From positions 1 through 46,475 of the forward strand of contig JABMMV010000219.1 in the NCBI GenBank assembly GCA_013205145.1: a DNA stretch of 46,475 nucleotides. Direction: 5' to 3'. Positions 6,493-12,043 of this stretch are shown in pieces. The DNA comes from a bacterium. Its GTDB lineage: Bacteria; Actinomycetota; Acidimicrobiia; Acidimicrobiales; Ilumatobacteraceae. The position numbers and the translations under genes were made by a program. Under the pieces are notes generated by a model. The model was not told the origin of the DNA, ran no database searches, and saw only the letters and a list, made by a program, of their open reading frames with translations. Positions within the stretch are counted from its first letter, which is position 1; every line of letters begins with the position of its first letter.

Positions 6493-6612
6493 GAGTGAAC
6501 TCTACAAGTGGAATCTTGTCGATGTCCACAGGGGTGTATGAAAAGGGACTTTCTACGCAGCCCTGCTTTTGAAGACAGTTGTGACGAGGGGCGAAGACTA
6601 CGATCTGAAGCG

Positions 6613-9600
6613 ATGCCGAATAGCAACCCCTCCTCTCCGCAAGATGTCTTTGGCCCAAACTCGTGGCTTGTTGACGAAATGTATGAACAGTTCCGTATTG
6701 ACCCAACAGCGGTGTCTGATACATGGCGTGAGTTTTTCACTGACTATGTGCCAGGCCATGCCGGCGCAGTGCCAGGCGTTACACAAAACGCTCCCTTGGT
6801 AGAAAGTGCACCTGTTGCCAAACCTGCTGTCACGGCGCCAACCTCGGCAGTACCCCCAGAACCCATTCGTGGTTCGGGTGCGGCCATTGTTGCCAACATG
6901 GAACGCAGTTTGACTGTTCCTACTGCAACGAGCTTTCGCAATGTTCCTGCTCGACTTTTAGAAGTAAACCGTCGCGCCATCAACTCGTACATGAACCGTG
7001 GCGGAATGGGCAAAGTGAGTTTCACGCACATCATTGGCTATGCCATCGTGCGCGCTATTGCCGATGCGGTTCCTGCAATGAACAACAGTTTTGCCACCGA
7101 TGAAGCGGGGGCACCGCACATTATTCGTAACCCAGAAGTGAATATGGGCCTAGCCGTTGACGTGGCAAAATCTGATGGTTCGCGCACGCTTGTTGTGCCT
7201 GTATTGCGCAATACAGGCGGGCTCAGTTTTGCCGACTTCCTCAACTCCTATGAAGAGCTCGTACGTAAGGTGAAAACGAACAAACTTGCCGTCACCGACT
7301 TCCAAGGTGCCACCATTACTCTCACGAACCCTGGCACCATCGGCACTGTTCAATCAGTCCCTCGCCTGATGCCAGGACAAGGTGTCATTGTTGGTGTGGG
7401 CTCTATCGATTACCCCGCTGAATTTCAGGGTAGCGACGAACGTGCTTTGTCGAAGTTGGGCGTTTCAAAAGTTGTCACAGTTACAAGCACCTACGACCAC
7501 CGCATTATTCAAGGTGCCGAAAGTGGAATGTTTTTAAAGCGCTTGCATGAATTACTCATGGGGCAGCACGCTTTCTATGACGACATTTTTAAAAGCCTTG
7601 GTGTTCCTTACAAGGCAGAACAGTGGCGTACCGACAACAACGCATCTGACTCCGAAGAGCAAATGTTGCATAAGCAAATGCAGGTGGCAAACCTCATTCG
7701 CGTGCACCGTGTGCGTGGGCATCTCATGGCCGACCTCGACCCCTTGCGTTGGAAAGAGCCAGTACTTCCCGCAGAACTTGACCCGTCAACCTACGGGCTC
7801 ACCATTTGGGATCTCGAGCGTTCGTTTCTTACCGGTGGTGTTGGTGGCGTAGATCGCCAGGAACTTGGCGACCTGTTGTCGGTCTTGCGCGAAACGTATT
7901 GTGGCACCATTGGTGTTGAGTACATGCACATTCGAAACACCGAAGAACACCGCTGGTTCCAAGATCGCTTAGAGGGTGTCACTTTCAATCCATCGTTGTC
8001 GCAGAAAAACCGCATCATGGAGCGTCTCAATGCTGCAGAGGCATTTGAAAAGTTCTTGGCCACAAAGTATGTGGGCACAAAGCGCTTTGGTCTTGACGGC
8101 TGTGAAACCGCTATTCCTGTTATTGATACCATTTTGTCGGCAGCTGCCGCAGAGCATCTCGCAGGCGCTGTTATTGGTATGTCTCACCGTGGTCGTTTGA
8201 ATGTGCTGGCCAACGTAGTGGGGAAGAGCTACGACCAAATCTTCAAAGAGTTCGAAGGACATGTGAAGCCCGATTCCGTGCAAGGTTCCGGTGACGTGAA
8301 ATATCACCTTGGTGCTCACGGCACATTCACATCTGGTGAAGGCGATGCTATTGAGGTTGAATTAGCCGCTAACCCCAGCCATTTGGAAACTGTTGACCCC
8401 ATCGTGATGGGAATGGTGCGTGCTGCTCAAGATGGCATTAACCCGCCACTCGCATTTAGTGTTTTACCTTTACTTATTCACGGTGATGCGGCGTTTGCAG
8501 GCCAAGGTCTCGTTGCCGAATGTCTGGCAATGAGCGACCTCAGTGGCTACCGCGTGGGTGGAACCATTCACCTCATCATTAATAACCAAATTGGCTTTAC
8601 CACCGCGCCACAGTTCTCGCATTCTTCGGTGTATTCAAGTGACGTTGCCAAAACGGTTCAAGCACCCATTTTCCATGTGAATGGTGATGACCCTGAAGCG
8701 TGTGTGCGTGTGGCAAAACTTGCCTACGACTATCGCCAAAAGTTTCACAAAGACGTGGTCATCGACCTCGTTGGTTACCGCCGCTTGGGTCATAACGAAG
8801 GTGATGACCCGAGTTACACACAACCACTCATGTACAAGGCCATTGCAGAACATCGCAGTTCGCGCAAGATGTATGTGGAAACGCTCGTGAAGCGTGGTGA
8901 CATTACTTTGGAACAAGCCGAGCAGTACCTTCTCGATTATCAGAGCAAGTTGCAGTCGGCGCTCGACGAAACGCGCGCACATGCACCTGTACCAATTAAG
9001 GCGCCGAAGCCACCACTGCCTGCAGGCGTGGTTTCTCATGTCAATACAGGTGTCGATCGTTCTGTTATCGAAACCATTTTCGCAAAACTTACTCAATACC
9101 CCGAAGGTTTTACTCCGCACCCCAAGCTTGCAAAACAGTTTGAACTGCGTGAAAAGACCTTCCGTGAAGAAGGCGATGTGGAGTGGGCGGTTGGTGAAGC
9201 ATTTGCAATTGGCTCATTACTGCTTGAAGGCACAAGTGTGCGCCTGACCGGAGAAGACACTCGTCGCGGAACATTTAGCCAACGCCATGCTGCGCTTATT
9301 GATTATGAAAACGAGCGCAACTGGGTACCTCTCGCCGACCTGGCAACGGCAAATGCCAACTTCTGGGTCTACGACTCACTGTTATCTGAGTACGGTGCAC
9401 TCGGATTCGAATATGGGTACGCACACGCCAACCACGAAGCGTTGGTGGCGTGGGAAGCTCAATTTGGCGACTTCGTCAACGGTGCTCAAATTGTTATCGA
9501 CCAATACATCGTTGCAGCAGAAGATAAGTGGGGCCAGCAAAACGGTCTGGTGATGTTGTTGCCACACGGCTACGAGGGTCAAGGCCCAGAACATTCATCT

Positions 9601-10209
9601 GCTCGCATTGAACGCTTCTTGCAGGCTTGTGCCGAAGACAACATTCAAGTGTGCAATGCCACCACCGCTGCGCAGTATTTCCATTTGTTGCGCCGTCAAG
9701 TGCGTCGCGACATACGTAAGCCACTTGTTATTTTCACACCAAAACAACCGTTGCGAATGAAAGAAAGTCGTTCAAAAATTGAAGACTTCACGCATGGTTC
9801 TTTTGAAGAAGTGTTGAGCGACACTGCTGCTCCCGCTGCTGAAACAGTGAAGCGTGTTGTTATTTGCAGCGGCAAAGTTGCATGGGATGCAATGTCAGAG
9901 CGCACCAAGCGCGGTTCGCCTGTTGCCGTGGTACGTGTTGAACAGCTGTATCCGTTCCCACTCGATCAACTTGTTGCAGAAATTGAAAAGTACCCGAATG
10001 CCGAAGAGCTGGTATGGCTACAAGAAGAGCCAGAAAACATGGGGCCGTGGCACTTCGTTGAGCATCGCATTTGGCGCCTCAAAGAACGTGGCTACGACCT
10101 GCGTCATGTTGCTCGTGTTGAGTCGGGGAGTCCTGCAACGGGTTCAATGGCTATTCACCAACAAGAACTTGCCGACCTCATGGATGGCGCTCTCGACTCC
10201 TGGAAATAA
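6613..10209 (+). CDS. kgd: Multifunctional 2-oxoglutarate dehydrogenase/decarboxylase, fused E2-E1 (Kgd/OdhA type)
   Basis: N-terminus MPNSNPSSPQDVFGPNSWLVDEMYEQF; E2 acyltransferase domain (STYDHRIIQGAESGMFL) followed by E1 (MSHRGRLNVLANVVGKSY, THLIINNQIGFTT, YEGQGPEHSSARIERFLQ). No lipoyl domain seen. Confidence 0.95.
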   Translation: MPNSNPSSPQDVFGPNSWLVDEMYEQFRIDPTAVSDTWREFFTDYVPGHAGAVPGVTQNAPLVESAPVAKPAVTAPTSAVPPEPIRGSGAAIVANMERSLTVPTATSFRNVPARLLEVNRRAINSYMNRGGMGKVSFTHIIGYAIVRAIADAVPAMNNSFATDEAGAPHIIRNPEVNMGLAVDVAKSDGSRTLVVPVLRNTGGLSFADFLNSYEELVRKVKTNKLAVTDFQGATITLTNPGTIGTVQSVPRLMPGQGVIVGVGSIDYPAEFQGSDERALSKLGVSKVVTVTSTYDHRIIQGAESGMFLKRLHELLMGQHAFYDDIFKSLGVPYKAEQWRTDNNASDSEEQMLHKQMQVANLIRVHRVRGHLMADLDPLRWKEPVLPAELDPSTYGLTIWDLERSFLTGGVGGVDRQELGDLLSVLRETYCGTIGVEYMHIRNTEEHRWFQDRLEGVTFNPSLSQKNRIMERLNAAEAFEKFLATKYVGTKRFGLDGCETAIPVIDTILSAAAAEHLAGAVIGMSHRGRLNVLANVVGKSYDQIFKEFEGHVKPDSVQGSGDVKYHLGAHGTFTSGEGDAIEVELAANPSHLETVDPIVMGMVRAAQDGINPPLAFSVLPLLIHGDAAFAGQGLVAECLAMSDLSGYRVGGTIHLIINNQIGFTTAPQFSHSSVYSSDVAKTVQAPIFHVNGDDPEACVRVAKLAYDYRQKFHKDVVIDLVGYRRLGHNEGDDPSYTQPLMYKAIAEHRSSRKMYVETLVKRGDITLEQAEQYLLDYQSKLQSALDETRAHAPVPIKAPKPPLPAGVVSHVNTGVDRSVIETIFAKLTQYPEGFTPHPKLAKQFELREKTFREEGDVEWAVGEAFAIGSLLLEGTSVRLTGEDTRRGTFSQRHAALIDYENERNWVPLADLATANANFWVYDSLLSEYGALGFEYGYAHANHEALVAWEAQFGDFVNGAQIVIDQYIVAAEDKWGQQNGLVMLLPHGYEGQGPEHSSARIERFLQACAEDNIQVCNATTAAQYFHLLRRQVRRDIRKPLVIFTPKQPLRMKESRSKIEDFTHGSFEEVLSDTAAPAAETVKRVVICSGKVAWDAMSERTKRGSPVAVVRVEQLYPFPLDQLVAEIEKYPNAEELVWLQEEPENMGPWHFVEHRIWRLKERGYDLRHVARVESGSPATGSMAIHQQELADLMDGALDSWK

Positions 10210-10216
10210 ATTTTAG

Positions 10217-10879
10217 TTACAACGACAGTTGTAAAGCAGTACTAAGAGCAATAAGTGCATCGTCGGGGTGAATGACCTTGATGGTGTGCATGCCCATGGC
10301 GGCAGCAGGCTTTAAGTTCACGCCCAGGTCATCGAGAAAGATGCATTCATGTGGCGACACCTGCAAAGTTTCGCAGGCAATTTCATAAAATCGCGTTTCG
10401 GGTTTACGGCAGCCAACTTTGCTGCTTTCAACAACGGCATCAAAGCGAGACATGATGGCTGCAATAGCTTCACGACGCTCTTGTGATGCTCCGTCGCCAC
10501 CCACCACATTGTTGGTGAGGCACGCCATGCGATAACCGGCTGCTTTGACCGTGTCGAGAGCCTGCACCATTGCAGGGCGAATTTCACCTGCCAAGAGCGC
10601 TAAGACATCGGATCCGGGTACCGGGTGGCCAAGGGCCGTGCTTTCGGCCATAAAGAGATCGTTGAAGTCGCGCGGTGAGACCTCATTTCGCTCGAGGAGC
10701 GCCCAGGCATTGGTATCGGGGTTGGTGGCGTTCACTTTGCGTAAAAAGCCCTGTGGAAGGTCCTTTTTGGCCTCATATTGCAAAAAAGCATCGAAAGGAC
10801 TCGACAAGATGACCCCTCCGAAGTCCCAGAAAACGGCGCGAAATGAGGAAGTGGTCACAGTGCCCAATGCTACGAGCAA
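10217..10879 (-). CDS. HAD-superfamily hydrolase (IA subfamily-like)
   Basis: Degenerate HAD motif I (AVFWDFGGVI), motif II (MACLTNN), and ECIFLDDLGVNLKPAAAMGMHTI near the C-terminus. Confidence 0.85.
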   Translation of the reverse strand: MLVALGTVTTSSFRAVFWDFGGVILSSPFDAFLQYEAKKDLPQGFLRKVNATNPDTNAWALLERNEVSPRDFNDLFMAESTALGHPVPGSDVLALLAGEIRPAMVQALDTVKAAGYRMACLTNNVVGGDGASQERREAIAAIMSRFDAVVESSKVGCRKPETRFYEIACETLQVSPHECIFLDDLGVNLKPAAAMGMHTIKVIHPDDALIALSTALQLSL

Positions 10880-10921: not shown

Positions 10922-12043
10922 ATGCCTCAATCACGCAGCCCGCACCACGTGGTGGTCGACGGGTCCAACATTGCTACCGAGGGCCGTAGTGCTCCGAGCC
11001 TGAAACAACTCAATGAAGCAGTCTTGGCGTTCATGGACGAACATCCCACCTCGAAAATTACGGTGGTTGTCGATGCCAGTTTTGGTCATCGCATCGACAA
11101 GAAAGAAGTTGCCGACTTCGATGATGCCGTGAACAACAACGAACTCGTCACCCCACCTGCTGGGGCCATTGGTCGCGGCGATGCATTTGTATTGGCAATT
11201 GCCGACAAGGTGAAGGCGTCCATCATTTCCAATGACAGTTACCAGGAATTCCATGGCGAACACACGTGGCTCTTCGATGAAGGTCGACTCATGGGTGGCA
11301 AACCCGTTCCGCATGTGGGCTGGGTATTTGTTGCTCGCTCACCCGTGCGTGGACCAACAAGCAAAAAAGCAACGCGTGGTGTGCAGGCACAAAAGCGCAC
11401 CAGTGAAGATGCGCGTCCTGCGAAAAAGGCAAGTCGTGAAGCAAGTGGCCCGATGCCCACACCGAAGACCCCACCTCCGGGTGCACGTATGGCGCCGCGG
11501 ACGCCCGAGAAAGTAGTTCCTGAAAAGCGTGACTCTGGTTCAGTCAATGAAGTCTTACCGTTCCTTGCCTTTGTCGAGAAACAGCCGGTAGGGAGCAAAG
11601 TGAAAGGCGTTGTCGATAGCTACAGCGCGCACGGAGCGTATGTGAAAGTAGGCGATATCAAGGGCTATGTTCCCTTGCGTCTTTTGGGCAACCCTGCTCC
11701 ACGGAGTGCACGAGAAGCCATTCACATTGGCGACACATTGGCACTCGTCGTAGCCGGGTACACACCAGCACGGCGCAGCGTTGAACTTGGGGTTCCTGAA
11801 GCTGTGAAAATTGCCGCGAAAGAGACCAAAGTAAAAGCATCGGTGAAAGCAGAAAAGAAACCACCAGTGCCAGCAAAGAAAGCAGCGCCATCGGCAAAGA
11901 AGGCTGCTATGCCGAAAAAAGCCGCAGCCGTGGTGAAAAAGGCTGCAGCGGCGGTGAAAAAAGCGGCGACACCCACGAAGAAATCTGTAGCGAAAAAAGC
12001 TGCGGCTCCGGCAAAAGCCGTATCGAAGGCCGCAAAGAAGTAA
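10922..12043 (+). CDS. Predicted NYN/Zc3h12a-like ribonuclease fused to an S1 RNA-binding domain and a histone-H1-like Lys/Ala-rich tail
   Basis: N-term HHVVVDGSNIATEGRSAPSLKQL...ITVVVDASFGHRID...GRGDAFVLAIADKVKASIISNDSYQEF has PIN/NYN acidic residues. Middle GSKVKGVVDSYSAHGAYVKVGDIKGYVPL is S1-like. C-term is a run of KKAA/AKKA repeats. Confidence 0.8.
   Translation: MPQSRSPHHVVVDGSNIATEGRSAPSLKQLNEAVLAFMDEHPTSKITVVVDASFGHRIDKKEVADFDDAVNNNELVTPPAGAIGRGDAFVLAIADKVKASIISNDSYQEFHGEHTWLFDEGRLMGGKPVPHVGWVFVARSPVRGPTSKKATRGVQAQKRTSEDARPAKKASREASGPMPTPKTPPPGARMAPRTPEKVVPEKRDSGSVNEVLPFLAFVEKQPVGSKVKGVVDSYSAHGAYVKVGDIKGYVPLRLLGNPAPRSAREAIHIGDTLALVVAGYTPARRSVELGVPEAVKIAAKETKVKASVKAEKKPPVPAKKAAPSAKKAAMPKKAAAVVKKAAAAVKKAATPTKKSVAKKAAAPAKAVSKAAKK

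Follow-up and report, generated by a model that had tools for sequence, protein, structure and literature searches.

A Zc3h12a-type NYN domain joined to an S1 domain and a basic stretch: a conserved candidate endoribonuclease of Acidimicrobiia

Regnase-like NYN ribonucleases have, to our knowledge, been studied almost only in eukaryotes, and we know of no study of RNA decay in the actinobacterial family Ilumatobacteraceae. A contig from a genome assembly of that family, 46,475 nt long and referred to here in its entirety as the window, carries on its forward strand an open reading frame (10922..12043, ATG start, 373 amino acids) which the initial annotation had described as a combination of three parts, a PIN/NYN-type N-terminal region, an S1 domain and a histone H1-like tail, and had read as an RNA-processing or RNA decay enzyme. 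The coordinates, the Pfam domains and the amino acid composition agree with this tripartite organization. The locus thus raises the question of whether an NYN-S1 protein of this kind is likely to cut RNA, what its S1 domain and basic stretch would contribute, and whether the neighbouring genes bear on its role.

A GTDB scan of one genome per species, conducted with a peptide pattern, returned 92 relatives, and the best 80 of the 92, which were kept, are 42-99% identical to the NYN-S1 protein. Their NCBI titles indicate Ilumatobacteraceae, Acidimicrobiaceae and further Acidimicrobiia; some of the titles, for example 'Bifidobacterium breve' or 'Acidobacteria', probably belong to misnamed metagenome-assembled genomes (MAGs). 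Against close relatives (L004-L006) the dN/dS ratio was 0.02-0.04 for the NYN domain, 0.01-0.02 for S1, 0.04-0.08 for the linker and 0.11-0.17 for the tail, these values being approximate since several dS estimates lie near or above 1. Because of the range of identities and the low dN/dS the open reading frame is not a chance one; the gene is real and constrained, and it is single-copy in its genome assembly.

The full profile was matched in 105 of the 295 genomes of a class sample. In eleven of these the match runs through the S1 stretch only, and we take the protein to be ribosomal S1 or a different protein with S1; the other 94 have the NYN-S1 protein, truncated at a contig end in a few cases. 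Every genome of the window's own family in the class sample has a match, and the remaining matches belong mainly to the same order, where they are patchy; further orders of the class contribute some. In a phylum sample the NYN family (PF11977) stood above the cut-off in 40 of 397 genomes, all of them in the window's class, so that the NYN family and the NYN-S1 architecture coincide within the sampled phylum; other phyla were covered indirectly, by the all-species peptide-pattern scan.

The N-terminal part of the protein (10943..11350, residues 8-143) is an NYN/PIN domain of the Zc3h12a type by Pfam, AlphaFold2 and Foldseek. PF11977 (RNase_Zc3h12a) matches residues 8-115 with 33.4 bits against a cut-off of 23 (E 4.5e-8), and in the AlphaFold2 model, built on 29 aligned relatives, the NYN core is modelled confidently (pLDDT mostly above 90). 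Compared with the PDB by Foldseek, the NYN half of the model resembles the PIN domains of ZC3H12C, MCPIP1 and ZC3H12B (E about 1e-6, prob 1.00; TM by target 0.59-0.66 for the ZC3H12 PIN domains), and a profile of the NYN domain only matches ZC3H12A/B/C and KHNYN in the PDB with E about 5e-5, the DGSN, D and SND motifs being aligned. The PIN/NYN-type features first noticed in the N-terminal region thus correspond to a Zc3h12-type PIN fold, and the comparison with Zc3h12a/MCPIP1 by structure prediction, proposed at the same time, returned a PIN-like fold.

Within this domain the DGSN motif with D13 and N16 (10958..10969) aligns (HMMER, 3V32) with D141 and N144 of MCPIP1, D87 of GRGD (11180..11182) aligns with D226, and N104-D105 of SNDS[FY] (11231..11236) align with N243-D244. 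The putative acidic catalytic residues which a nuclease reading calls for are present in part: three of the four catalytic aspartates of MCPIP1 (D141, D225, D226 and D244) are matched by sequence alignment, namely by the invariant D13, D87 and D105, and the D225 position is occupied by G86. A further invariant aspartate, D51 of the VVVDA motif (11072..11074), stands where MCPIP1 has no acidic residue and is aligned by profile with the VFDG aspartate of the YacP-type NYN proteins of the same class. D13, N16, D51, D87, N104 and D105 do not vary in 78 of 78 relatives.

The D226N/D244N pair kills the activity of Regnase-1 (PMC4772114), and the correspondence of these two residues to D87 and D105 supports reading the NYN-S1 protein as an endoribonuclease. 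In KHNYN and ZC3H12B, Mg1 is coordinated by the counterparts of D225 as well as of D226 (PMC12709174), and G86 in place of D225 counts against that reading. Three aspartates do not exclude activity, because MARF1 and a CRISPR NYN enzyme, in the latter of which D13A abolished activity, have a conserved set of three aspartates (PMC11346440). The glycine would also suit a catalytically inactive RNA-binding protein that retains the NYN domain as a fold only, but six residues (D13, N16, D51, D87, N104 and D105) stayed invariant in 78 sequences while the rest diverged to about 42% identity, and loss looks different in a divergent NYN-only relative with LDADT for VDGSN, so that we regard an inactive protein as highly improbable.

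This second, NYN-only relative (open frames of about 150-270 amino acids) occurs in some genomes of the same order. It was read on the minus strand of two loci (L150 and L151), both with LDADT, and second matches are present also in G087, G137, G197 and G259. Judging by its altered first catalytic motif, it could be a paralogue that is inactive or acts in a different way.

After the NYN core, outside the Pfam match, the protein carries the motif GGKPVPHVGW (11294..11323, residues 125-134), whose ten positions are all unvarying in the 78-sequence set; in one family of relatives (f4) and in other orders PH is replaced, and GGKPV and GW are retained. Its part may be to cover the active site or to form contacts with S1.

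A low-complexity basic linker (11351..11545, residues 144-208, net charge +9, pLDDT about 50-65) leads to an S1 (OB-fold) RNA-binding domain with an N-terminal helix (11546..11797, residues 209-292). PF00575 (S1) was found at residues 221-289 with 29.6 bits against a cut-off of 22 (E 9.4e-7), and the S1 half of the AlphaFold2 model is very confident (pLDDT above 94). This half matches ribosomal protein S1 (bS1) by profile (E 1e-27) and, as an OB fold, by Foldseek (rmsd about 1.8), in agreement with the S1 RNA-binding region previously recognised in the middle of the protein. The K/A-rich basic tail that follows (11798..12040, residues 293-373, net charge +22) consists of 31% K+R and 43% A+P, its pLDDT drops from 84 to under 50, and its coding DNA contains a 21-bp repeat (11914-11964). 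Among 63 relatives with a complete tail the net charge of the tail has a median of +25 and never falls below +9. The description of the tail as histone H1-like holds for its basic, K/A-rich composition and does not extend to homology with H1, the tail having given no Pfam match at E up to 1.

Nor is the tail an essential C-terminal feature. In family f4 (loci L090-L099 and L103-L105) a K/A-rich stretch with a net charge of +13 to +29 is placed between NYN and S1, and most of these proteins end 7-9 residues past S1, while two genomes of another genus in that family (L108 and L114) have a basic stretch both in the linker and at the C-terminus. That family f4 might use an unusual stop codon or reading frame ('one TGA inside') was considered and rejected: the profile overruns the true C-terminus, and the protein ends after S1. 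The charge of the basic stretch is thus conserved and its position is not, which favours a loose electrostatic tether over a specific histone-like module. The exchange between linker and tail hints that, in the vicinity of NYN and S1, charge outweighs sequence or position.

Two observations on basic repeats may be added. K/A-rich tails in the genome were sampled with one DNA pattern, which misses the tail of the NYN-S1 protein itself, and an apparent topoisomerase I of the window genome, named from its sequence (L152, G000:C141), has a similar K/A-rich end. In an Ilumatobacter MAG (L048:5001-7337) the KKAA-coding repeat shifts frame into an arginine-rich repeat, both frames encoding basic residues, and continues in frame into the exonuclease gene xth to give a fused open reading frame of 778 amino acids; the fusion could stem from a misassembled repeat or from a genuine frameshift.

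The explanation that we favour, with moderate confidence, is that the NYN-S1 protein serves as a housekeeping endoribonuclease which depends on divalent metal ions and which S1 and the basic stretch keep on RNA. The NYN domain would bind one or two Mg or Mn ions via D13, D87, D105 and perhaps D51 and would cleave single-stranded or loop RNA; the ribosomal-S1-type domain and the disordered K/A-rich stretch would keep the enzyme on RNA, perhaps ribosome-associated or structured, and would add affinity that the bare NYN domain lacks. Observed are the fold class, the conserved putative metal ligands, the conserved S1 domain and basic charge and the single-copy conservation across the family; catalysis, an RNA substrate, tethering and any specific target are inferred. 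The protein probably has a housekeeping part in RNA processing or RNA decay. The capacity of S1 domains and basic tails to bind DNA or protein as well counts against this explanation, and the substrate could be DNA instead.

RNase E/G was found in 20 and RNase J in 19 of the 21 genomes searched, that of the window included. RNase P RNA was present in 18 of 21 relatives, among them all 9 of high quality, and was undetected in the window assembly, which is 80% complete. Because these activities are present in the clade, the NYN-S1 protein is an additional RNase candidate, one that would supplement RNase E/G and RNase J and replace neither. A nuclease of rRNA or tRNA maturation, or at the extreme a protein-only RNase P such as PRORP, likewise a protein with an NYN-type PIN domain, would be in keeping with the conserved, housekeeping-like distribution and with the occurrence of PRORP1/2 among the Foldseek matches. 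The Zc3h12 PIN domains, however, outrank PRORP there, and the RNase P RNA of the relatives rules out a replacement of RNase P; we consider a maturation nuclease improbable.

Of 149 genomes examined in the class, 78 carry YacP (PF05991); by profile at E up to 0.001 it was not detected in the window genome or in a near relative that is 96% complete (G177), and the NYN-S1 protein itself has no PF05991 match at E up to 1. These data bear on a special case of the favoured explanation, in which the protein would be a ribosome-associated, Rae1/YacP-like endonuclease, directed to the 30S subunit by S1, whose NYN domain cuts mRNA on stalled or translating ribosomes. Rae1 cuts mRNA in the A site (PMC12320835), and the closeness of the S1 half to bS1 domains, the alignment of D51 in VVVDA with the VFDG motif of YacP and the lack of YacP in the two genomes named point in the same direction. 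Many non-ribosomal proteins have S1-like domains, however, and YacP and the NYN-S1 protein coexist in many genomes of the class, so that the latter is not a simple replacement of the former; we hold this special case to be unlikely. Equally doubtful is the more far-reaching proposal of a class-specific RNase of Acidimicrobiia-type bacteria, in which three parts, a Regnase-like NYN domain whose metal site is altered (D51 present, D225 absent), a domain of the ribosomal-S1 type and a basic stretch not bound to one position, would serve to cut mRNA on or near the ribosome as a further major activity beside RNase E/G and RNase J.

The gene neighbours are as initially described: a HAD-family hydrolase gene (10217..10879, minus strand, by open reading frame and Pfam) lies divergently, and an xth-type gene of the exonuclease III family (PF03372; 12053..12823, plus strand) begins 9 bp past the stop codon. 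Because of this short gap the NYN-S1 gene and xth are likely to be co-transcribed in the window, which is no evidence of a shared function. A promoter scan found none, and terminator-like matches numbered 4 where chance would give 2.6. An open reading frame for a multifunctional 2-oxoglutarate dehydrogenase/decarboxylase-type enzyme (kgd, named from sequence) precedes the NYN-S1 gene on its strand (6508-10209), a position that is kept in most relatives. Among roughly 130 loci compared, many of them too short for all neighbours and some being repeat fetches of one genome, kgd was present in 111, xth in 99 (with a single exception on the strand of the NYN-S1 gene) and the HAD gene, divergently placed, in 91. 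No conserved neighbour with a part in RNA processing was found, which counts against the favoured explanation. The xth/HAD/kgd neighbourhood is absent in other orders with the same architecture (L100, L101, L155 and L156), and since the architecture persists where xth and HAD are missing, they have little bearing on function; reading a function from them was rejected as weak. A phage, plasmid or defence origin was likewise rejected, there being no match in PADLOC or PHROG and none to phages, plasmids or viral contigs.

A PIN-like fold with an aspartate after strand 2 is common to flap nucleases. This likeness, the adjoining xth gene (9 bp downstream in the window) in 99 loci and the tail of the same kind on topoisomerase I of the window genome would accord with a DNA-directed nuclease or nucleoid protein that partners the exonuclease III-type enzyme and binds DNA with its basic tail, as the tails of topoisomerase I do. 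The loss of that neighbourhood in other orders speaks against such a partnership, as does the fact that S1 is chiefly RNA-binding and that the closest solved relatives cut RNA, and we regard it as very unlikely; in view of the S1 domain we see no reason to prefer a role in the nucleoid to one on RNA.

The original reading of the protein as an RNA enzyme therefore stands as a well-supported hypothesis, corrected on the H1 label and on the weight given to the tail and the neighbours. What we describe is a bacterial branch of Regnase-like proteins whose tether is fixed and of another kind, encoded by a single-copy gene and strongly conserved throughout an actinobacterial family; should the protein prove active, it would be a housekeeping RNase that had gone unrecognised, and it would offer a simple system for studying how NYN nucleases gain targets via added RNA-binding parts. 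In line with the statement that no characterised protein of this exact architecture was known, literature searches revealed no characterised bacterial NYN plus S1 protein, although a 2017 classification of the PIN superfamily, which was outside the search, may list it.

Among known systems the closest are Regnase-1/MCPIP1 (ZC3H12A), ZC3H12B/C and KHNYN, which belong to the same PF11977 family, have the same fold and share DGSN, D(226) and SND(244). The NYN-S1 protein differs from this group in that S1 and the K/A-rich stretch replace the CCCH zinc finger, KH or CUE-like parts (the Pfam scan found no CCCH zinc finger of the Regnase/MCPIP type, and the 373 residues include no cysteine), and in its glycine at the D225 position, its extra D51, its GGKPVPHVGW extension and its bacterial host. 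YacP/Rae1 (PF05991, NYN_YacP) is, like it, a bacterial NYN nuclease with a DG.N start and V.D(A/G) after strand 2, but belongs to a different Pfam family, aligns in profile comparison over residues 9-52 only and, in the proteins of the class, has an ADD motif in place of GRGD. The DUF88/LK-nuclease proteins (MARF1-type NYN) with OST-HTH or S1/cold-shock OB domains represent a different NYN family, and the NYN-S1 protein is without OST-HTH. The Lys/Ala-rich tails of actinobacterial nucleic-acid enzymes such as topoisomerase I are built of the same kind of KKAA/AKKA repeat, whereas here the stretch is joined to NYN and S1 and its position is exchangeable with the linker. The combination of a Regnase-type NYN domain, a bacterial S1 domain and a basic tether is limited to one class in the sampled phylum.
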